A stretch of 64,000 nucleotides of DNA from Bacteroidota bacterium (GCA_021794075.1 JAJYRM010000003.1:1-64000), one strand, 5' to 3'; counted from the stretch's first letter, positions 5,268 to 39,092 are shown. Numbers and translations are program-made. The notes: generated by a model from the sequence alone, not told the origin.

Positions 5268-7358
5268 ATGAAGAAGGGAGTACCGTACGCCATATTTGTG
5301 GCGCTTCTCCTGACCATGGCCGGATGTTCGAAATACAAGGTGGCGTCTTTCGTGATGCCGACGTGGAACATGCAGCTATCAGCACCGATTTTCAATCGGA
5401 CTTATACGCTTTTACAGATGATATCCAAGGACACACTCCAGGTATCAAACGGTGACACGACTTTCCTGTTGCCGAACTCCCAAACTCAAGTTTTCACTTT
5501 GCTAAGATCTCAGAACCTGAACGGCGTGTCGGTTGGGAGCAACCTGAAGATCGGCGCTGTGCCGCAGACTAACGTCGCCCAGAGCCCGAAGGATTTTACA
5601 ATTACCAACCCGCCGTCCATCCACTACGCTTTGGTGAACCCAGGCATCGTGACGGGAACCGTTCCTTTCGTCCCCGCGATTCCAAAGCAGTCGGAGACGA
5701 TCACACCGGCAGACGCATTTACTAACTTCAAGACCGCTACGCTTAAGAGCGGTGATTTGACGGTTACAATTCACAACGGTTATCCTTCGCCCATCGATTT
5801 CGTCAACGGACTCAATTTGATCGATGCTAACGGACAGCCCATCAATATCCCTGTTCCTAATAATTCCATAGGTGCAAACCAGACAGTTACTCTGCCGATT
5901 GTTTCGCTGGCCAACAGGACGCTTTCAGATCAACCTTCGGTCACGTTTACCGATAGTTCGAAAGGCTCGTCTTCGGCCGCAACGATACAATCCGATACTA
6001 CGATATCATTCTCGGCCACTATGACGAATGTTCACGTGTCGTCTGCTAATGCCATAGTTCCCGCGCAGCCTGACATCGTAATCGACTCGAGCATCGTTAT
6101 ACAGGACGGCAACAAGGTCCAGACCGCATCTATCGATACCGGAAGCGTCAGCCTAACGGTGCGAAACAATTATAATATCAGTATACCGGTCAGTCTTACC
6201 ATTCCCGGACTGACGCGGAACGGCGTGTCCCTCACGCGGAGCTTCACGCTAAGTCCAAAAGGAACTTCGGGAAGTATTTATTCGGCGCCAATATCTCTTA
6301 ACGGTTATACTCTCAGCATGGCTAATCCCACGACCGGCGCCCCTTCCGATTCGCTAAGTTACAGCGTCACGGCCCAAATACCGGGATCGAACGGAAGCTA
6401 CGTTAATATCGCGACGACCGATTCCATCAATGCTTCATTCCAACTTACCGGCCTTCAGCTTTCGTCTTTCACCGGCGAAGTTCATCTCGCGAATCCGATC
6501 AATATATCTCCCGACACGCAGAAGGTAGATCTTGGATCATTCACGTCGAAGTTCAACGGCGCGATCCTTTTCGGACCAGGGACGACGCTTCAGCTGAGAA
6601 TAAACAGCATAGGTTTCCCTTGCGAGGCGCATATATCACTCATACCTACGAGCAGCGAGTATCTCTCTCTCCCTGCTGTCGATTCCGCGGTCGTGGATAC
6701 CACCATTTATCCGAATCAGACAAACGTGATAACGCTCGGACAGAATTTCGTGAATGCCCTGAATCATTTCTCGGAAGTTCACAAGACGATTCCAGACAGG
6801 TTCATAATCAGCGGTTATGTAATCGTAAATCCGGGCGGTACCGCGATCGGGTCCGTGAAGAGCACCGACATGGTCAGCGGGAACGGAACGATAACGATGC
6901 CGTTAGACCTTGGAATAATCAACGCGCAGTATTCTGACACGACCAAGTCTGCCGTAATAACCGATTCGAGTACTTCCGCGAAACTCGATAATGTGGATAG
7001 TGGTAGCGTAGTCATCGAGGTGTGGAACGGTCTGCCGCTGCAGGTTACCATGAGCGGTCAGCTGATCGATACGACGACTCACGCCGTCGTGATGAATTTC
7101 CCGAGTGACAGCATTTATATTCCTGCTGCTCAAATCAACCCCGATGGTAGCGTGAAGGATTCTGTGTTCAGCAAGAACATTGTCTCACTGACTGCGGCGC
7201 AGGCCAGGGATCTCGGAAAGAGTTACATGAGATTCTTCTTCAGAGTCGAAACACCGCCGGGGGCGACCACGGTGCCGTTCAAGAAGGATAACGATATTTC
7301 CGTGAGGGTCTACGGCAATTTTGCCCTCAAGGTTGACAAAAACCTGACCGGAAAGTGA
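5268..7358 (+). CDS. Large lipoprotein with repeated WHy/LEA14-like beta units
   Basis: Lipobox LTMAGC; repeated segments SGDLTVTIHNGYPSPIDF, TGSVSLTVRNNYNISIPV, SGSVVIEVWNGLPLQVTM. Confidence 0.65.
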   Translation: MKKGVPYAIFVALLLTMAGCSKYKVASFVMPTWNMQLSAPIFNRTYTLLQMISKDTLQVSNGDTTFLLPNSQTQVFTLLRSQNLNGVSVGSNLKIGAVPQTNVAQSPKDFTITNPPSIHYALVNPGIVTGTVPFVPAIPKQSETITPADAFTNFKTATLKSGDLTVTIHNGYPSPIDFVNGLNLIDANGQPINIPVPNNSIGANQTVTLPIVSLANRTLSDQPSVTFTDSSKGSSSAATIQSDTTISFSATMTNVHVSSANAIVPAQPDIVIDSSIVIQDGNKVQTASIDTGSVSLTVRNNYNISIPVSLTIPGLTRNGVSLTRSFTLSPKGTSGSIYSAPISLNGYTLSMANPTTGAPSDSLSYSVTAQIPGSNGSYVNIATTDSINASFQLTGLQLSSFTGEVHLANPINISPDTQKVDLGSFTSKFNGAILFGPGTTLQLRINSIGFPCEAHISLIPTSSEYLSLPAVDSAVVDTTIYPNQTNVITLGQNFVNALNHFSEVHKTIPDRFIISGYVIVNPGGTAIGSVKSTDMVSGNGTITMPLDLGIINAQYSDTTKSAVITDSSTSAKLDNVDSGSVVIEVWNGLPLQVTMSGQLIDTTTHAVVMNFPSDSIYIPAAQINPDGSVKDSVFSKNIVSLTAAQARDLGKSYMRFFFRVETPPGATTVPFKKDNDISVRVYGNFALKVDKNLTGK

Positions 7359-7369
7359 GGAGAGGGAAA

Positions 7370-8833
7370 ATGAAGAGAATATTAGTCCTTACGGCCCTTT
7401 TCCTGCTTCCGTTGTTCAGCCTTCAGGCACAACAAATTGCGAGCAGCAGGCTCATCTCCATGGGCGGAGTTTCTACAGCGGTGTCTTCAGATGTGGACGC
7501 CATCGGCACAAATCCCGCGAATCTGCTGGCGAACTCGGGCGGCAAAGTTGTCGTCGAACTCGCTCCTATCAGTTTGAGAGCAGGCACTGATTTCTTGAGC
7601 CTTAATCTCTATAACAACTACTTTACCGGGACCGGCCAGGTAGACAGCGCTGGCAACAAGATCGGGAAGTATCTGACAGCGGCAGATAAGCAGAGTATAC
7701 TCGACGCTTTTCCTGGCGGAGTCGGGACTGTGCTTACCGACGTGAATATTCGTGATTTGGGCGTATCGGTTAGGAACAATGATTTCGCTCTTGGCTTCTC
7801 AATCGACGACCGGATAGGCGCGCGCGCGACGGTTCCCAACTCATTCGTACTATTTGCTCTCAACGGGAATGCTCCCGGATCCAATTTCTCGTGGAACAAC
7901 ATTAGTTCGAAAGCGTGGTGGTACAGAAGCTATAACGCGGATTTTGCGATGAGTCTTCCGAATCCGATTGTGATTCCGAAGGACATCGCGAAGAATTTCA
8001 ACGTCGGTATTGGAGTGAAGTACGTCACCGGTATCGCGTATGCCTCAGCGCAGTCGAACAACAGCTATCTGCAGACTGACTCCGCAAACTACGCATTTAA
8101 CGTGGGGCTGGGATTCAACGGACTGCGTGCCGGGATATTAAGCAACGAGATATCAAAGGCGATGAAGAGCAATGTCGGCGACACGGTGACAAATTTCAAT
8201 CCGTTTTCTCCTGCCGGTTCCGGATTTGGTTTTGATCTAGGCGGCTCGGCAAGGATTCTCGACTTTATTAAGGTCGGCGCGAGCTTCACAGATATCGGTA
8301 GCATATCGTGGACAAAGAATACAATAAGAACTTCCGGCGACACTTCTTTTACTTTTAACGGGTTTTCACCTGCCGAAGCCGGGGTTCCTAACGCGACAAG
8401 CAACGTCGACAGCCTGAATAACGCTTTCAAGAATTTCTTCAAGAACAGGGATTCCGTATCGTCTGGGTTCACTACTCCTCTTCCAACTCGCTTCAACCTC
8501 GGCGCAGCGGTAAATGTGGATGAGGTCTTCCCGTCGATACCTGGCCAGCTTACACTCGCGGTGGATTACCACCAGGGGCTTAACAACTCCCTCGGTAATT
8601 CAACAGTTCCCGAGCTTGACTTTGGAGCGGAGTGGAAGCCAGTGGGCGTTCTTCCGATAAGGACAGGCGTAGGATTCGGAGGCGCTTACGGTTTCCGATG
8701 GGCGCTAGGCATCGGCATCGATATGCCGTTCTGGGATATCGATCTTGGCGTTGGAACGTTCAATGACGTGGTCGCGTTCAATAGCGCAAAGAACCTCTCG
8801 GTGACACTAAGCTTTCTCAAGTTCAGATTCTGA
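7370..8833 (+). CDS. Outer-membrane beta-barrel protein (DUF5723-like)
   Basis: Signal peptide MKRILVLTALFLLPLFSLQAQ; SSRLISMGGVSTAVSSDVDAIGTNPANLL; ends LSVTLSFLKFRF, a C-terminal aromatic beta-strand. Confidence 0.7.
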   Translation: MKRILVLTALFLLPLFSLQAQQIASSRLISMGGVSTAVSSDVDAIGTNPANLLANSGGKVVVELAPISLRAGTDFLSLNLYNNYFTGTGQVDSAGNKIGKYLTAADKQSILDAFPGGVGTVLTDVNIRDLGVSVRNNDFALGFSIDDRIGARATVPNSFVLFALNGNAPGSNFSWNNISSKAWWYRSYNADFAMSLPNPIVIPKDIAKNFNVGIGVKYVTGIAYASAQSNNSYLQTDSANYAFNVGLGFNGLRAGILSNEISKAMKSNVGDTVTNFNPFSPAGSGFGFDLGGSARILDFIKVGASFTDIGSISWTKNTIRTSGDTSFTFNGFSPAEAGVPNATSNVDSLNNAFKNFFKNRDSVSSGFTTPLPTRFNLGAAVNVDEVFPSIPGQLTLAVDYHQGLNNSLGNSTVPELDFGAEWKPVGVLPIRTGVGFGGAYGFRWALGIGIDMPFWDIDLGVGTFNDVVAFNSAKNLSVTLSFLKFRF

Positions 8834-25259: not shown

Positions 25260-28200
25260 ATGATAAAAAAGGTCGCGGCAACTATAGTGATGCTTTATTC
25301 CCTGAACGCTTTCGCCGGGAATAGAGTGCTTATCGTGTACGAAGGCAAAGATGCCCAGAGCAATCCGGCAAAAGGAGACGCCCTCCAGCTGTACCAGCTC
25401 CTCGGCCATTTCGATCTCCGCAAGAAAGTGGTCGCGGCCGACGATTACCGCCCGGGGGAGTGCAACGGTTTCGATTACGTCTTCTTCAATGGGTTCAGTC
25501 CTAATTGCCAGCCGCCGGATAAATTTCTCGATGACGCGTTCAATTATAAGGGAACGCTCGTCTGGCTGAATACCGGTATAATTGCGTTCAACGCGCGTCA
25601 CAATCTAGCGGAAAAGTACGGGTTTATTCCGGAGAGGTATGACTCTACGCTCGGGTTTGACGCGGTAGTCCCAACTGACCGGGATTTCAGGTTCGACAAG
25701 GGGGACAACTACCTAACGATGATGACGATAACAAACGGCAGTAAAGTCAAGGTACTTGCGAACGCTTACGCGCCTCATCATGTCGTCTCGCCATATGCCA
25801 TTCATTCCGGCAATCTTTATCTCTTCGGTGATTCGCCATTCTCGTACATCGGGCCGACAGACAGGTACATCTTCTTTGCCGAGAAGCTCCACGATATTCT
25901 TCACCAGGAGCATCCTGAGTTTCACTCGGCAATGATCCGCATAGAAGACGTTGACCCTACCGAGGACCCAAACAGCATTAGAAGGATTACGGATCTGCTA
26001 TACGGCGAGCACGTCCCGTTCCTGATTGCCGTCGTGCCATTTTATGTCGATCCGGCAAACAACGTCCGTATCTCCCTTTCGGACAAGCCTGATATGGTGG
26101 ACGCGCTTCGATACGCCGAAGAGCATGGGGCGACCGTCGTCATGCACGGAGTCACTCATCAGTATCACGGCGTAACAGATAATGATTATGAATTCTGGGA
26201 CAGCGCGCTGAACAGGCCTATAGCCAACGATAATGCTGGCTACGTTGAACAGAAGCTTGAGACCGGGGTAGAGGAACTGATGCGAAACGGCGTTTACCCG
26301 CTTGCCTGGGAGACGCCCCATTACGGCGCCTCAGATATCGATTACGCCGCGATATCAAAGGTGTTTTCTACTGCGGTCGAGCAACGCACTGTCTTGAACA
26401 ATCTCGATTACAGTCAGTACTTTCCTTATGTCATTCAAAAAGACTTGTTCGGTGAAAGGATCGTCCCCGAGAATACCGGCTACGTCCCTTATGGCCCGCC
26501 TGAAGAGGAGGAGAAGGGAGTCCAGGATATACTCGCGGCAGCCAAGGCTAATCTATACGTTAGAGACGGCTACGCTACAGCGTTCTTCCATCCGTTCATG
26601 CCGATTCATCTCCTCAAGGAAATTGTCGAGGGCACCAAAGCGCTCGGCTATACGTACGTCAGTCTGCGCGACAGCAGCAATGTGGTGAGGCTTCCCGATA
26701 GGGTCGTTTTGTCAGGCACGGATTCGTTTAAGATTTCAATTGAGGACGAATATCTCAAACAAGTATATCTGAATGAAAAGGGAGAAAGAGCTGAAAGAGA
26801 GATAACTCCTAAGAGAGTCACGGAGACGTTCAGGAAGAGCGTCAGTCTGAAAAAAGGTTGGATCTACGCGGCTGAGCCCATAGAGTACAGGGAGAAGGAC
26901 CTGACCTTGCTGGACAAAGTAATGATAGGAGCCAAGAGTGTTTGGAGAAGTTTTTTTCCAAAAAAGAAGAAGATTACTCCGGCAGTCGCGGGCATACTTT
27001 GGGATTCGACTGCGACTGGCGGCGCGAAGCTTGACGAAGAGAGTTTTGCGGCGGCGCTCAGGAGCGTGGGCATACCCACCGACACGCTTACACCGGGTGG
27101 CCTCGACAGCCTGAACCCGTATAACCTTCTGATCGTCCCGTACACCGTCGCGGACAATCTTCCTGATTCTCTTTACGAGACACTCGAGAAGTTTGTCTCG
27201 TCGGGTGGGAGTTTGGTCACGGATTCGAAGAATCCTCTCGCGGTTGATTTCGGAGTTAAGTTCAGTCAAAACGTCATGCGGCTCGAGAAAGTAAGGGACC
27301 GAATGTTTCCTGAACAGCTCCTGAGCTGGGGAAACTTCGAGACTGTCCACCGGATCGATGTCGAGGAAAACGATCAGGTAATCTGCTCGAACGATTTGAA
27401 CGACGCGCCGGTAGCCATAGCAAGAAACTACGGGCGAGGCAAAATCATCGTGATGAGCGCGCGATTCGACCCCGTGACGGGGGGAGGCTACGCCAGATTC
27501 CCGTATTTCATCGAATGGATCAAGAATTATTTCCAGCTTTACCCGACATTGAGACGGGACAACCTCGATATGTTCTTCGATCCGGGGTTAAGGTCAACGT
27601 CGCACATAAGCGTCGAATCTCTTGTAAAGGACTGGGCAGCAAAAGGTATTAGGGTGATTCAGGTTGCCGGATGGCACGAATATCCCAAATATACTTACGA
27701 TTACGACAGGTTGATCAGGTTGTGCCATGCTTATGGAATTGCCGTGTACGCGTGGCTGGAACCACCACAGATAAACAAGAAGTTTTACGATGAGCATCCG
27801 CAATGGCACGAGAAGAATTACAAAGGACAGGACGTGCGCCCCGACTGGCGCTATCCCGTCGCGCTTGCCGATCCTGCCTGCTTGCGCGCGGCATCTGACT
27901 GGACTTACAAGTTCCTTACCTCCCATGATTGGGACGGGGTGAACATATCCGAGCTCTATTTCGGTGGGGAGGGGGCGCCTGCTGATCCGAAATTGCTTAC
28001 CCCTTTCGATATGAGCGTGCGCGTCAAGTTCAGGAAGGAATACGGCTTCGATCCCGTCCAACTCTTCCAGCAGAACTCTACGCACTATTACAAGACCTCG
28101 CCGCAGGACTGGAAGAGCTTCGTCGACTTCCGCGCTTCTTTGGTAACGAGCCTGACCTCGCATTTCATAGATGTAGCCAGGGACGCCTTCAGCAGCAAAC

Positions 28201-29189
28201 CTGGCGCCCAGATAATACTGACCGCGATGGATCAGAAAACATTCCCGAATCTCCGAACCTCTCTCGGAGTGGATATGAACCAGATTCTTCAACTCCGAAA
28301 AAATTATCCTTTCATTTTAAACGTTGAAGACCCGGAGGTAAGCTGGAACTCAGACCCGAGACGTTATGTGACGATAGGGAACACGTACAAGAAATTGCTG
28401 GGAGCGGATTCTTCAGATTTGATGATAGACCTGAACATACTGGAATTTCGGCGTTCCAATTACAATGGAGTATTTCCCACGAAGATGCCGACAGGAATCG
28501 AGAGCTATCTGCTTGTGAATTCTGCCTTGCAGGCCGCTCCGCGCATAGCTATCTATTGCGAGGCAACGGCATTACCTCAGGACATTGCCGATTTTCCTTA
28601 CGCGGCTACGCCGCAAGCTAATTTCGAGGCGTCGAACGGCGGTTTCAGCGTCGACGCGCCGTACTCGACATGCATGAGGCTCAGCAATGATGTGGCTGAA
28701 GTATCGGTGGACGGCCGGATAGAATATCCTTACCAACCCGGCTGCTTCTCGATCCCAGCGGGGGATCATTTTGTTAAGATTGTCAAAACGGATGTCAACC
28801 CGTTTGAAAGCGGACTTATGCATTCACATATAGAAGCGGCGTCGTGTAATATCCTGAGCGAGCGGACATTTCAACGCGGAGTAGAGTTCACTTACTCTTC
28901 AATGGGCAGATCCGCTGTTTCTTTCGAGAAGATGCCGTACGCAGTTCTCATAGACGATCATGAAATCCCGTTTGCAGTCTCGCGAGAGGAACAACATTAC
29001 GGCATCATTCTGCCGCCAGGCCAGCATAAAGCGCTTGTGGTTTTGGAAAGCACTGTATCTTATGGGATCGACATGACGAGCCTGTGGTCATCCGCACTTA
29101 TAGCGATCTTCGGCTCGATCGCCGGGGGGATTCTGGTACTCCTTTATTTTGTGCTCAAGTTCAGAAGAAGGACAGTCGCGCATGTATGA
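25260..29189 (+). CDS. Multidomain secreted/membrane polysaccharide-processing protein: DUF2334-like deacetylase + amidotransferase-like fold + GHL10-like glycosidase + C-terminal TM
   Basis: Signal peptide at 25260 (MIKKVAATIVMLYSLNAFAG); deacetylase-like MIRIEDVDP and VVMHGVTHQYHG; mid-region ILWDSTATGG...LIVPYTVADNL; TIM-barrel-like GIRVIQVAGWHEYP...YAWLEPPQINKKFYDEHPQWH...DWDGVNISELYFGGEG; C-terminal helix SALIAIFGSIAGGILVLLYFVLKFRRR. Confidence 0.7.
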   Translation: MIKKVAATIVMLYSLNAFAGNRVLIVYEGKDAQSNPAKGDALQLYQLLGHFDLRKKVVAADDYRPGECNGFDYVFFNGFSPNCQPPDKFLDDAFNYKGTLVWLNTGIIAFNARHNLAEKYGFIPERYDSTLGFDAVVPTDRDFRFDKGDNYLTMMTITNGSKVKVLANAYAPHHVVSPYAIHSGNLYLFGDSPFSYIGPTDRYIFFAEKLHDILHQEHPEFHSAMIRIEDVDPTEDPNSIRRITDLLYGEHVPFLIAVVPFYVDPANNVRISLSDKPDMVDALRYAEEHGATVVMHGVTHQYHGVTDNDYEFWDSALNRPIANDNAGYVEQKLETGVEELMRNGVYPLAWETPHYGASDIDYAAISKVFSTAVEQRTVLNNLDYSQYFPYVIQKDLFGERIVPENTGYVPYGPPEEEEKGVQDILAAAKANLYVRDGYATAFFHPFMPIHLLKEIVEGTKALGYTYVSLRDSSNVVRLPDRVVLSGTDSFKISIEDEYLKQVYLNEKGERAEREITPKRVTETFRKSVSLKKGWIYAAEPIEYREKDLTLLDKVMIGAKSVWRSFFPKKKKITPAVAGILWDSTATGGAKLDEESFAAALRSVGIPTDTLTPGGLDSLNPYNLLIVPYTVADNLPDSLYETLEKFVSSGGSLVTDSKNPLAVDFGVKFSQNVMRLEKVRDRMFPEQLLSWGNFETVHRIDVEENDQVICSNDLNDAPVAIARNYGRGKIIVMSARFDPVTGGGYARFPYFIEWIKNYFQLYPTLRRDNLDMFFDPGLRSTSHISVESLVKDWAAKGIRVIQVAGWHEYPKYTYDYDRLIRLCHAYGIAVYAWLEPPQINKKFYDEHPQWHEKNYKGQDVRPDWRYPVALADPACLRAASDWTYKFLTSHDWDGVNISELYFGGEGAPADPKLLTPFDMSVRVKFRKEYGFDPVQLFQQNSTHYYKTSPQDWKSFVDFRASLVTSLTSHFIDVARDAFSSKPGAQIILTAMDQKTFPNLRTSLGVDMNQILQLRKNYPFILNVEDPEVSWNSDPRRYVTIGNTYKKLLGADSSDLMIDLNILEFRRSNYNGVFPTKMPTGIESYLLVNSALQAAPRIAIYCEATALPQDIADFPYAATPQANFEASNGGFSVDAPYSTCMRLSNDVAEVSVDGRIEYPYQPGCFSIPAGDHFVKIVKTDVNPFESGLMHSHIEAASCNILSERTFQRGVEFTYSSMGRSAVSFEKMPYAVLIDDHEIPFAVSREEQHYGIILPPGQHKALVVLESTVSYGIDMTSLWSSALIAIFGSIAGGILVLLYFVLKFRRRTVAHV

Positions 29190-30471
29190 TTTTTTCACGA
29201 CACTCCTTGGGGCGCTGTTCGTTCTTTCGGTGATATTTATATGGTTCATGATCGCTTATCAGCTCGTCCTGACGATAGCCGGCTTCTTTCACAACTGGGC
29301 GTCTGCCAAGGAAAAACTAGCTATCGACAACATGACTCATTTCGAAAGCCCGCGAGTCTGTATCCTCATCCCCGCTCACAACGAAGAGACGGTCATCCAG
29401 AGAACCTTGGACGCAATGGTGAAGTTGGATTACCCGGCTGACAAGCTGGAGATCCTAGTCATCAACGATGGCTCTTCGGACAGGACGGGGGAGATAGTCG
29501 AGTCGATGTCGAAACAGGACCGAAGGGTTCGATGCTACAACGTGCCCGAAGGCGAAGGGGGTAAGGGGAAATCACGAGCGCTGAACCTTGGCTTGAAGCA
29601 AACCGATGCCGAGGTGATAGCTGTTTATGACGCAGACAACCAGCCACTTCCTGACGCGTTGAAATACCTTGTTGCGGAACTTCTCCTGCATCCTGATCTC
29701 GGCGCCGTGCTCGGTAACTTCAGAACCATTAACAAAGACAGGACCTGGCTCACTCGTTTCGTCAGCATTGAGACGATGAGTTTTCAGGCGATACTGCAGG
29801 CTGGAAGATGGGCGATGTTTAAGGTGGCAACGCTGCCGGGGACGAACTTCGTGATATGGAAGCATCTCGTGGATGATCTCAACGGCTGGGACGAGGATGC
29901 CATTACAGAAGACTCTGAGTTGAGCATCAGGGTTTACATGAAAGGTTACAAAATCAAATACATACCGTTTGCAGTAACGCTTGAACAGGAGCCGGAGACG
30001 CTTCCGGTTTGGACGAAACAGCGAACCAGATGGGTCCGGGGCAACAACTATGTTGTGACGAAATTCATGAGAGAGATAACGCAATTCCAAAACAAGTTCC
30101 TCGCATTCGAAGTCCTCTATCTACTCTCGCTTTATTACGTGTTCCTCTTTGCAATCGGCGTCAGCGATTTAATATTTTTATTGAGCGTCACGCATTTGGT
30201 CGCGATTCCGCTTCCGGGTCCGTACACTACTGTTTGGGTACTGGCGGTCGTACTCTTCATCCTGGAAATAATCCTAGTATTGTCGTATGAGGGAATGGAC
30301 ACGCCGAGGAATTTCTTCCTCGTGTTCCTGATGTATTTCACCTACTGTCAGTTCTGGATATACGTGGTCGGGAGGGCGATCTATCTTGATTATATAAAGA
30401 GGGAGAAGCGCACATGGTCAAAGACGGTGCGCTTTCAACTCGATGATGGCGCGAAAGGAAAGAAGAAGTAA
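29182..30471 (+). CDS. Processive family-2 glycosyltransferase (PgaC/BcsA-like), membrane
   Basis: VCILIPAHNEETVIQRTLDAMVKLDYP, LVINDGSSDRTGEI, AVYDADNQP, DEDAITEDSELSIRVY, KQRTRWVRGNN (QxxRW); TM helices at both ends; 8 bp overlap with upstream gene. Confidence 0.9.
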   Translation: MYDFFTTLLGALFVLSVIFIWFMIAYQLVLTIAGFFHNWASAKEKLAIDNMTHFESPRVCILIPAHNEETVIQRTLDAMVKLDYPADKLEILVINDGSSDRTGEIVESMSKQDRRVRCYNVPEGEGGKGKSRALNLGLKQTDAEVIAVYDADNQPLPDALKYLVAELLLHPDLGAVLGNFRTINKDRTWLTRFVSIETMSFQAILQAGRWAMFKVATLPGTNFVIWKHLVDDLNGWDEDAITEDSELSIRVYMKGYKIKYIPFAVTLEQEPETLPVWTKQRTRWVRGNNYVVTKFMREITQFQNKFLAFEVLYLLSLYYVFLFAIGVSDLIFLLSVTHLVAIPLPGPYTTVWVLAVVLFILEIILVLSYEGMDTPRNFFLVFLMYFTYCQFWIYVVGRAIYLDYIKREKRTWSKTVRFQLDDGAKGKKK

Positions 30472-35508: not shown

Positions 35509-37356
35509 ATGACAGGAAAAGAACTCCTACAAATACTAAAAGACAGAATCCTCGTTTTTGACGGCGCGACCGGCACAAGCCTCCAAACACAGAACCTCAC
35601 GGCGGAAGATTTTGGCGGTGAACATCTGATGGGGTGTAACGAGTACCTGAACATTTCGAAACCGGAAGCTCCGGAAAAAGTCCACCGTGGCTTTCTCGAC
35701 GTCGGAGTGGACGTCGTTGAGACAAATTCATTCGGGGCGACACCTATCGTGCTGGCCGAATACGGTATCTCGAACATGTCGTATGAGATAAACAAACGTG
35801 CCGCGGAAATCGCGAGAAAGTGCGCCGACGAGTATTCGACAGGTGAACGCAGGCGCTATGTCGCTGGATCGATGGGACCTACCACTAAGCTGCCTTCGCT
35901 CGGCCATATCGAGTTCGACGCCATGCGCGATTCGTACAAGGTTCAGGTGAAGGGGCTTGTCGACGGAGGCGCTGACCTTCTCATCATTGAAACGTGCCAG
36001 GACCTATTGCAGACAAAGGCAGCGTTGGCTGCCGTTTATGAGTACACCCAGGAAAGCTCCAGGGAAATCGCGGTAATTGTCTCGATCACGATCGAGACAA
36101 TGGGAACAATGCTCATGGGTACTGAGGTTTCGGCGGCGCTAACCGCTATTGAACCGTACGACATCGTGACGGTCTTCGGTATGAACTGCGCTACCGGTCC
36201 GAAGGAGATGGAGGAAAACGTCCGCTATCTATGCGAAAACTCGCCGAAGCCAGTTTTCGTGATGCCGAACGCCGGTCTTCCTGAGAATATCGGCGGACAG
36301 GCATGTTACAACCTGAAACCTGACGAGCTTGAGTTTTGGATGACCCGGTATGTAAAGGAATTCGGAGCTAGCATTATCGGCGGGTGTTGCGGGACGACAC
36401 CTGAGCACATAACCAGACTCGTAAAAATCGCGTCCAGCGTGAAACCAAAGAAACGCGAATTCTCCTACACGTCCGCCGTATCATCGATATATTCAAGCGT
36501 TTCGCTTCATCTCGATCCGCCTCCAGTGATTGTCGGAGAAAGGTGCAACGCCAACGGGTCGAAGAAGTTTAAGGAGCTTCTCCTCGCGGAGGACTATGAC
36601 GGCATGGTACAGCTCGCGAAGGAACAGATGAAGGAAGGGGCGCACATTCTAGACCTTTGTGTCGCGTACGTCGGGAGGGATGAAGTCCGCGACATGCGCG
36701 AAGTGATGAAGAGGTTCAACACCCAGGTCGCTTTGCCTTTGATGATCGATTCCACCGAATACCAGGTTATAGAAGAGGCGCTGAAGAGGTACGCTGGGAG
36801 AGCCATCATCAACTCGATAAACCTGGAAGACGGCGAGGAGCGGATGAAGAGGGTGCTCCCGCTTTGCAGGAAATACGGCGCGGCTGTGGTGGCTTTGACC
36901 ATAGACGAATCGGGCATGGCGAAGACCCGAGAGAAAAAATTTGAAGTGGCCAAGCGTATTCGGGATCTGGCGGTCAACAAATACGGGATGAGAGAGCAAG
37001 ATTTGATATTCGATACGCTGACTTTCACGCTCGGTTCCGGCGATGAGGAATTCAGGAAAGCCGGTATCGAGACGATCGAAGCGATTAAGCTCATAAAAAC
37101 CGAATTCCCGGCGGCCTACACGCTCCTTGGCGTGTCGAACACCTCGTTTGGCTTGAACGCGCACGCGCGTCACGTTTTGAATTCCGTTTTCCTATATTAT
37201 GCGATTGAGAAAGGGCTCGACCTTGCGATCGTCAACGCACAGAAGATCACGCCCCTTTACAAGATAGATGAGCGCGGGAGGGAGATCTGCAGGGAATTGA
37301 TTTTTGACGAGCGGAAGTTTGCCGACGCTTCTGCCGGAGAGGCGGTGCAAGGGTGA
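35509..37356 (+). CDS. metH: Methionine synthase N-terminal half (homocysteine- and folate-binding modules)
   Basis: ILVFDGATGTSLQTQNLTAEDFGGEHLMGCNEYL, IIGGCCGTTPEHI zinc site, VGERCNANGSKKF, AHILDLCVAYVGRDE pterin-binding. Confidence 0.9.
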   Translation: MTGKELLQILKDRILVFDGATGTSLQTQNLTAEDFGGEHLMGCNEYLNISKPEAPEKVHRGFLDVGVDVVETNSFGATPIVLAEYGISNMSYEINKRAAEIARKCADEYSTGERRRYVAGSMGPTTKLPSLGHIEFDAMRDSYKVQVKGLVDGGADLLIIETCQDLLQTKAALAAVYEYTQESSREIAVIVSITIETMGTMLMGTEVSAALTAIEPYDIVTVFGMNCATGPKEMEENVRYLCENSPKPVFVMPNAGLPENIGGQACYNLKPDELEFWMTRYVKEFGASIIGGCCGTTPEHITRLVKIASSVKPKKREFSYTSAVSSIYSSVSLHLDPPPVIVGERCNANGSKKFKELLLAEDYDGMVQLAKEQMKEGAHILDLCVAYVGRDEVRDMREVMKRFNTQVALPLMIDSTEYQVIEEALKRYAGRAIINSINLEDGEERMKRVLPLCRKYGAAVVALTIDESGMAKTREKKFEVAKRIRDLAVNKYGMREQDLIFDTLTFTLGSGDEEFRKAGIETIEAIKLIKTEFPAAYTLLGVSNTSFGLNAHARHVLNSVFLYYAIEKGLDLAIVNAQKITPLYKIDERGREICRELIFDERKFADASAGEAVQG

Positions 37357-39092
37357 TGGCTGAACTGAAATGCGTATATGATCCGCTGGTGGAGTTGATG
37401 AACTTTTACGCGGCGGCGAAGTCCGGTCCGGCGAAAGACGTTGACGAGGAATCGTTAAGTCTCGAAGATAAGCTGAAGAGAAGGATCATCGACGGCGACA
37501 GGATCGGAATCGGCGACGACCTGAAAAAAGCTCTCGAGCAGTATTCTCCCCTTCAGATCATAAATGAAGTATTGCTGGACGGCATGCGCGCCGTGGGTGA
37601 ACTGTTCGGAAGCGGTCAGATGCAGCTTCCGTTCGTATTGCAGTCAGCGGAAACGATGAAGGCCGCGGTTAAGTATCTCGAGCCTTTCATGGAGAAAGTC
37701 GAGGGAGCACAGAAGGGGACGATAGTCCTTGCGACTGTGAAGGGTGACGTCCACGACATCGGGAAAAACTTGGTTGACATTATCCTGACGAACAACGGTT
37801 ACAAGGTTATTAACCTCGGCATCAAGGTGCCGATTGAGCAGATTATTGAAGCCGCTGAGGGCAGCGATGCTGACGCCATCGGTATGAGCGGTCTGCTGGT
37901 GAAGTCGACCGTGGTCATGAAGGAGAACCTTGAATTGATGGAGCAGCGCGGGATCAATATACCGGTGGTACTTGGCGGCGCAGCCCTCACGAGAAGATAT
38001 GTCGAGCAGGATCTCCGTAAGGTTTACAGAGGCTATTTATCCTACGCCAACGACGCGTTCGCCGGACTCCATTTCATGGAAGACATCAAGTCCGGGAAAG
38101 TCGATGTTGCGGAAATTACGAACGCGACGACATCGTCGACTTCGTTGAACAAGACCCTCGAGCTGAACAGGAAAGTGGCAGGCAGAGAAGAGCAGGTCAT
38201 CGTTCAATCAAGAAGCAAGGTGAAGACCGATGTCGATATGCCGGTTCCGCCATTTTATGGTACGGCGGTCGTGACGGATATCAAGCTAGAGAAGATATGG
38301 GAATACCTCAACGAGGTCGCTCTTATCCGCGGCCAATGGCAGTTTTCGAAAAAGGGGAAAACTGAAGAAGAGTACGACAAGATATTGAAGTCCGATGTTT
38401 ATCCGGCGCTTGAGGAAGAAAAGCTGAAGGTGAAACGCGAGCGGCTATTCGAGCCTAAAGTGGTTTATGGCTATTTCCCCTGTCAATCGTCAGGTAACGA
38501 TCTGATCGTCTACCGGCCCGCTTCCGACGAAGATCCATGTTCCAAATGGAGCGGGGTCAAGCCCCACAACGCGAGAATGAGTGATCTGAGAGAGTGGGTC
38601 AGGTTCACTTTCCCGCGTCAAAGGGACGATCGGTTCCTGTGCATCTCGGATTATTTCAGATCGGTAGAATCCGGTGAGCTCGATGTGATTGCCTTGCAGG
38701 CAGTGACCATAGGGGCAAAGGCGAGCGAATCCACCAAGAGACTGTTCGATGCTGGCAACTATCAGGAATACCTTTACCTGCACGGACTCAGTGTCGAGAG
38801 CGCGGAAGCGCTCGCTGAATATTGGCACAAGATAGTCCGAACGGAGCTCGGGATAGTAGGGAACGATGCCAAAGAAATCAAGAGGCTCTTCTCACAGGGT
38901 TACCAGGGATCGCGCTATTCGTTCGGTTATCCCGCGTGTCCGAACATCGAAGACCAGGCGCGACTGTTCGAAATTCTGAGGCCGGAAAGGGCGGGGATCA
39001 CTTTGACGGAGGAATATCAGCTGGTGCCTGAACAGAGCACGACTGCCATAGTGGTACACCATCCCGAAGCCAAGTATTTCAATATCAAGTAA
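37353..39092 (+). CDS. metH: Methionine synthase C-terminal half (cobalamin-binding + AdoMet-activation)
   Basis: GQMQLPFVLQSAETMKAAVKYLEPFME, TVKGDVHDIGKNLVDIILTNNGY (DxHxxG), PVVLGGAALTRRYVEQDL; activation domain ...YSFGYPACPNIEDQARLF. Confidence 0.9.
   Translation: MMAELKCVYDPLVELMNFYAAAKSGPAKDVDEESLSLEDKLKRRIIDGDRIGIGDDLKKALEQYSPLQIINEVLLDGMRAVGELFGSGQMQLPFVLQSAETMKAAVKYLEPFMEKVEGAQKGTIVLATVKGDVHDIGKNLVDIILTNNGYKVINLGIKVPIEQIIEAAEGSDADAIGMSGLLVKSTVVMKENLELMEQRGINIPVVLGGAALTRRYVEQDLRKVYRGYLSYANDAFAGLHFMEDIKSGKVDVAEITNATTSSTSLNKTLELNRKVAGREEQVIVQSRSKVKTDVDMPVPPFYGTAVVTDIKLEKIWEYLNEVALIRGQWQFSKKGKTEEEYDKILKSDVYPALEEEKLKVKRERLFEPKVVYGYFPCQSSGNDLIVYRPASDEDPCSKWSGVKPHNARMSDLREWVRFTFPRQRDDRFLCISDYFRSVESGELDVIALQAVTIGAKASESTKRLFDAGNYQEYLYLHGLSVESAEALAEYWHKIVRTELGIVGNDAKEIKRLFSQGYQGSRYSFGYPACPNIEDQARLFEILRPERAGITLTEEYQLVPEQSTTAIVVHHPEAKYFNIK

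Follow-up and report, generated by a model that had tools for sequence, protein, structure and literature searches.

A DUF2334 deacetylase fused to a glycosidase-like barrel and paired with a GT2 synthase: a candidate exopolysaccharide system in one class of Bacteroidota

Do a large protein joining a predicted deacetylase to a glycosidase-like barrel and the glycosyltransferase encoded next to it act together in exopolysaccharide synthesis and, if so, on which sugar? The question is raised by a stretch of 64,000 nucleotides from a Bacteroidota bacterium (the whole stretch is called the window below), which carries on its plus strand a large gene at 25260..29189, coding for 1309 residues from its ATG and fusing a DUF2334 deacetylase to a GH-like TIM barrel, and a GT2 gene at 29182..30471, coding for 429 residues of a predicted processive polysaccharide synthase of the PgaC/IcaA-like type. 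Both open reading frames and their overlap of 8 bp (29182–29189), reported in a preliminary description of the locus, were confirmed. Comparison with the nearest relative gives dN/dS ratios of approximately 0.03 for the large protein and 0.02 for the glycosyltransferase, which are only rough values because synonymous sites are near saturation. An ORF-calling artefact as the source of the pair was rejected, the dN/dS ratios lying near 0.02–0.03. The gene pair is real, coherent and conserved across one bacterial class.

Full-length homologues of the large protein, sharing 39–91% identity with it, were found in 29 distinct genomes (21 of 61 relatives and 15 of a phylum-wide sample of 396, with 7 genomes in both sets). 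All belong to the class of the window, which is known here mainly from environmental genomes, and the relatives are labelled 'Bacteroidetes bacterium' or 'Candidatus Kryptoniota bacterium' in GenBank. The GT2 gene is the next gene to the large gene in every one of the 26 neighbourhoods read, the two reading frames being about 0.9 kb apart in one of them (L069), and this synteny bears out the previously suggested coupling of deacetylase and GT2. No close homologue of the glycosyltransferase was detected in five genomes without the large protein (best match 26–30% identity). Occurrence of the N-terminal half apart from the C-terminal half was also considered and rejected for the phylum, as the 15 matches in the 396 genomes all lie in open frames of about 1300 codons.

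The large protein consists successively of a signal peptide, a Rossmann/GATase-like domain, the DUF2334 domain, a second GATase-like domain, a TIM barrel, a β-rich domain and a transmembrane helix. Residues 1–19 (MIKKVAATIVMLYSLNAFA; 25260..25316) likely form a Sec signal peptide, judging by inspection of the sequence, and are poorly conserved in the alignment of homologues. The domain that follows (residues ~20–215; 25317..25904) was delineated from the AlphaFold2 model, Foldseek and HHalign: its Foldseek matches are GATase subunits, the HHalign alignments to proteins from Comamonadaceae and Streptomyces cover the entire region, and it is common to stand-alone DUF2334 proteins. The domains listed in the preliminary description were all recovered but this one had been omitted. 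The DUF2334 (PF10096) CE4-like deacetylase domain itself (residues 224–458; 25929..26633), assigned from Pfam, conservation and fold, scores 164.7 bits against a gathering cut-off of 26 (E = 2.8e-48), and its residues E229, D230, H296, H300, H354 and H444 are invariant in 26/26 homologues, in agreement with the deacetylase proposed earlier. According to HHalign, E229, D230, H296, H300 and H444 are also kept in the Comamonadaceae and Streptomyces homologues. CE4/CE18-type enzymes have an acidic base next to or near the metal-binding Asp, bind the metal through HxxxH and use a late His as acid (PMC7229062, PMC12022489); since these residues are all present, the deacetylase motif set is complete by pattern. 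The PgaB/IcaB sequence family was not matched in this half, DUF2334 being the only deacetylase family hit.

A phmmer search of PDB sequences with the large protein gave no match, PgaB included, and profiles of each half yielded only weak ones (β- and α-galactosidases, single CE-like entries); a fold search was therefore used. The AlphaFold model of residues 20–560 (mean pLDDT 90.7) matches human NDST1 (E = 1.7e-11) and the CE4 deacetylases PgdA and PdaC in Foldseek, with TM-scores that are modest because the query comprises two domains. These matches support an N-terminal half of CE4/NDST-like deacetylase fold, for which the corresponding activity is predicted.

In the C-terminal half, profile and fold delimit a second GATase-like domain (residues ~577–735; 26988..27464) resembling the GH42 trimerisation domain. 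The match is under the cut-off in the window protein, and the GH42M model recovers 25 of the 26 homologues at E<=0.1 (best 1.5e-7), which upholds the amidotransferase-like segment noticed before. The adjoining TIM barrel (residues ~766–1115; 27555..28604) is PgaB-GH/GHL-like by its AlphaFold2 model, fold and conservation. Its Pfam match to GHL6 is also under the cut-off and no GH family passes its own cut-off in the window protein. Five acidic residues of the barrel, E834, E898, D1024, E1081 and E1101, are invariant in 26/26 homologues, and the C-terminal half of distant homologues is only about 40% identical to that of the window. The model of residues 566–1309 (pLDDT 87.1) matches the C-terminal glycosidase domain of PgaB (4p7q) with a TM-score of 0.67 by target length (E = 1.9e-9); other fold matches include Cwp19, a cell-wall-associated protein, GH42 galactosidases and PelA (9cgy). 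The barrel anticipated from the sequence is thus supported as PgaB-like by fold, and glycosidase activity is predicted for it. Secondary structure in the AlphaFold2 model further indicates a β-rich domain (residues ~1121–1262; 28620..29045), and the C-terminal transmembrane helix already proposed is predicted by hydropathy at residues 1280–1298 (29097..29153), is helical in the model and is followed by KFRRR. The protein is accordingly predicted to be secreted and held in the inner membrane by this helix.

The glycosyltransferase displays the motifs HNEE, DGSSD, DADN, TEDSEL and QRTRW, which are conserved family-wide and include the D, DxD, TED and QxxRW motifs noted before, together with several transmembrane segments. 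Its best NCBIfam match is PgaC/IcaA (TIGR03937), at 175 bits against an equivalog cut-off of 422 bits. PgaC and cellulose synthases are its best matches overall, that is, polysaccharide synthases and not the non-polysaccharide enzymes with which, as the preliminary description had allowed, it might have grouped; nor are the catalytic motifs variable, as had likewise been allowed, being invariant in homologues. The evidence supports a synthase of the exopolysaccharide type that is presumably processive.

By gene content, the closest operon precedent is ydaLMN of Bacillus subtilis, not pga or pel. YdaL, which we take to be a DUF2334 protein, is not known to possess a GH/TIM half, and the B. subtilis control genome has PF10096 matches. 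The operon associates YdaL with the putative glycosyltransferase synthase YdaM, and in 26/26 loci of the window family DUF2334 and GT2 genes are likewise neighbours; all three genes ydaLMN are needed for exopolysaccharide, and ydaJKLMN is controlled by c-di-GMP (PMC5422440, PMC13274460). There, however, YdaJ, encoded by a gene of its own, supplies the putative glycosyl hydrolase, and no counterparts of YdaK and YdaN were seen beside the window genes. The preliminary description had missed this nearest precedent and invoked PgaB/PgaC, a comparison that holds for a GT2 tied to a deacetylase–glycosidase fusion and for the PgaB-like barrel. PgaB indeed combines an N-terminal deacetylase and a C-terminal GH in one periplasmic protein, has a GT2 partner and matches the window barrel by fold (PMC5933820), whereas the window protein has a DUF2334 deacetylase, extra GATase-like and β domains and a C-terminal transmembrane anchor, its glycosyltransferase falls below the PgaC cut-off, and pgaA and pgaD were not seen among the neighbours. 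The window pair would thus work like PgaB/PgaC and is a member of neither family by the tests made. A deacetylase–hydrolase fusion has been described in Gram-negative PgaB (PMC7112194); that of the window, on a deacetylase family other than PgaB's, would be a fusion in its own right. The domain order does not set it apart, contrary to what had been suggested, deacetylase followed by glycosidase being PgaB's own order and PelA being the reversed one. PelA is also a multi-domain deacetylase and hydrolase with α/β and β-rich domains, and was hit by fold as 9cgy (PMC12022489), but its hydrolase comes first, and its partners are other Pel proteins, with PelB for export. As already remarked, no PgaA, PgaD, Bcs or Pel genes were seen around the pair in the window. 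A literature search, mostly outside subscription journals, found no description of the window architecture; the system assembles familiar parts in a new way.

Beyond the class, homologues confined to the N-terminal half (29–32% identity) were found on three plasmids. The cluster on a comamonad plasmid (L090:5806-14752) contains wecB, an NfrB-family GT2, a small ORF, a DUF2334 gene homologous to the window N-half, an NfrA-like TPR pore and a DUF4434 gene; more genes surround an Nfr/NGR-like system there than in the nfrBA-ybcH operon of E. coli. For Streptomyces, wecB and a GT2 gene are divergent and adjoin a DUF2334 gene. HHalign aligned about 450 residues of the window family, deacetylase motifs included, with the comamonad and Streptomyces DUF2334 proteins. 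The comamonad DUF4434 protein was examined as a relative of the window barrel and rejected (no sequence link, HHalign probability 0.15%). The window glycosyltransferase is not closely related to the NfrB-type enzyme of the comamonad cluster and shares only 27% identity over 240 residues with that of Streptomyces. It differs from the Nfr/NGR system in that its length leaves no space for an MshEN domain and it is not NfrB-type, no TPR pore is adjacent, and wecB is adjacent only in relatives; for the E. coli NGR operon, moreover, no DUF2334 protein is described (PMC8669472, PMC8669469).

The presence of wecB next to the pair bears on the nature of the sugar. In four of the 26 loci (L036, L037, L065, L070) it immediately precedes the large gene, in the same orientation and with gaps of 0–114 bp, its identity being given by TIGR00236, well over cut-off in the one scanned, and by PF02350 in the two scanned. 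A WecB tree, with some long branches and several uncertain forks, groups these four adjacent WecBs with those of two more pair-bearing genomes, apart from a second paralogue group. WecBs of this type (E<=1e-85) occur in 14 of 15 pair-bearing genomes versus 65 of the 381 that lack the pair, a contrast confounded by shared ancestry in the class. The window genome has two wecB copies, both away from the pair. Inspection of two pair-less genomes (G040, G294) revealed no synthase beside wecB, so that wecB alone is no marker of the system. The phage N4 glycan receptor of E. coli, NGR, requires wecB, nfrB and nfrA (PMC8669472), and ManNAc is its proposed monomer (PMC8669472, PMC8669469). The Listeria Pss system has a GT2, PssC, most like IcaA/HmsR (PMC4125290), includes a deacetylase, PssB (PMC4125290, PMC6307706), and makes poly-ManNAc with Gal (PMC6307706); unlike the window system it is Gram-positive, comprises a five-gene operon and has no deacetylase–GH fusion described (PMC4125290, PMC6307706). 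ManNAc is favoured because of the wecB linkage together with the gene dependence of NGR and this Listeria precedent, and GlcNAc is its main rival, PgaC/IcaA being the nearest glycosyltransferase family and PgaB one of the nearest barrels. ManNAc rather than GlcNAc as the monomer would have a chance only slightly short of even.

A third gene stands beside the pair in 15 of the 26 loci. Its product, about 420 residues long and rich in β-strands, has a signal peptide and resembles SlipAM weakly at best, at the C-terminus; from these sequence features we infer it to be an outer-membrane barrel and a putative pore. The term 'two-gene system' used at first is consequently too narrow, since this gene (15/26) and wecB (4/26) adjoin the pair. 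No match to the barrel-like gene was found in the window's own genome. In the window's genus it is intact in G001, G003, G010 and G011, a partial copy in G008, and reduced to pieces or interrupted by stops in G006 and G002. The remnants (stops, fragments) in these last two species, at G006:C28:83137-83455 and G002:C39:299012-299392 (L046), are situated directly after the GT2 gene. Such decayed remnants are evidence of recent loss in the genus. The window itself has no room for a remnant because a convergent gene for a Fur-family regulator begins 6 bp past the GT2 gene. Because much of the genus lacks this gene or keeps it only in decayed form, the export route proposed below is tentative.

Several other neighbours were noted. 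Repeated genes of one family lie upstream of the large gene in L032, L033, L034, L035 and L038 and downstream in L036; scanning of one of them (L035) showed a PSII_BNR/YCF48-like repeat protein, and these are possibly secreted surface proteins. Elsewhere in the window, region 5268-8833 holds a 696-residue ORF (5268-7358) without Pfam match at 1e-5, preceding a DUF5723 protein gene (7355-8833; E = 7.7e-36). At 35509-39092, an apparent methionine synthase is split, from translations read by eye, into two adjacent ORFs of 615 and 579 residues overlapping by 4 bp.

Taking as computed the gene pair, the folds, the conserved motifs, the co-conservation and the adjacency of wecB and the barrel-like gene, we infer activities, processivity, substrate and export route as follows. 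The inner-membrane GT2 would polymerise a UDP-N-acetylhexosamine, most likely UDP-ManNAc made by WecB, giving ManNAc as the monomer, and pass the chain outward. There it would be taken over by the large protein, which the signal peptide would bring across the inner membrane and the C-terminal helix would keep on the periplasmic side. The DUF2334 domain of this protein would strip some N-acetyl groups in a metal-dependent, CE4-like reaction, and its barrel would bind the partly deacetylated polymer and/or cut it, in the manner of PgaB on PNAG. The neighbouring barrel-type protein may serve as outer-membrane exit in many relatives; in the window's genome, devoid of that gene, another pore may be used or the polymer kept on the cell. 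That the pair is concerned with synthesis and modification of an amino-sugar exopolysaccharide appears likely. The fuller proposal, namely the core of a synthase-dependent system in which the fusion deacetylates and binds or cuts the chain, with ManNAc as the most likely monomer, is in our opinion somewhat better than an even proposition.

Among the alternatives, the GT2 might glycosylate a lipid, the S-layer or a lipoprotein, the fusion trimming or deacetylating that glycan or peptidoglycan and no free exopolysaccharide being made. The absence or decay of the barrel gene in much of the window's genus, the anchoring of the large protein at the inner membrane and the presence of Cwp19 among related barrel folds would fit such a role, but QxxRW, TED and several transmembrane helices mark processive synthases, the best glycosyltransferase matches are PgaC and cellulose synthases, and DUF2334 partners elsewhere belong to exopolysaccharide operons (ydaLMN, the comamonad NfrA/NfrB-like cluster), so that we consider it improbable. 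Another alternative, which is compatible with the exopolysaccharide system proposed above, concerns the barrel only, which could be a non-catalytic module binding carbohydrate or guiding export, the protein then being a deacetylase with a docking domain. Its similarity by fold only to the PgaB GH domain and to GH42, with no GH family over cut-off, would accord with this; the invariance of E834, E898, D1024, E1081 and E1101 despite ~40% identity of the C-half in distant members nevertheless makes it rather unlikely.

It could finally be argued that the system is a divergent PNAG-like one, the GT2 making poly-β-1,6-GlcNAc and the large protein being the functional counterpart of PgaB, as the best glycosyltransferase model is PgaC/IcaA, the barrel resembles the PgaB GH domain and the order of deacetylase and GH is that of PgaB. 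However, 175 bits is far under the PgaC cut-off of 422, the deacetylase is DUF2334 and not of the PgaB deacetylase family, pgaA and pgaD are not nearby, wecB is linked in relatives, and Listeria PssC is IcaA-like too, yet its polymer contains ManNAc (PMC4125290, PMC6307706). About one chance in four seems appropriate here.

DUF2334 is annotated as uncharacterised, and a full-text search covering few subscription journals retrieved one paper in which it is named. Because the family is linked with wecB in three bacterial groups, with NfrA/NfrB-like genes and, in a conserved manner, with a polysaccharide synthase, a guess at its function can be made: it would deacetylate a polymer of hexosamine, probably ManNAc. 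A wider reading, possible although on balance doubtful, is that the window protein represents, after PgaB and PelA, one more independent deacetylase–glycosidase fusion, here on DUF2334, making partly deacetylated, cationic poly-ManNAc in diderms, within an unrecognised multi-phylum class of wecB-GT2-DUF2334 systems. If true, the joining of a deacetylase to a glycosidase for the handling of secreted amino-sugar polymers would have occurred repeatedly in nature, and a matrix polymer would be predicted for a class represented here mostly by environmental genomes.
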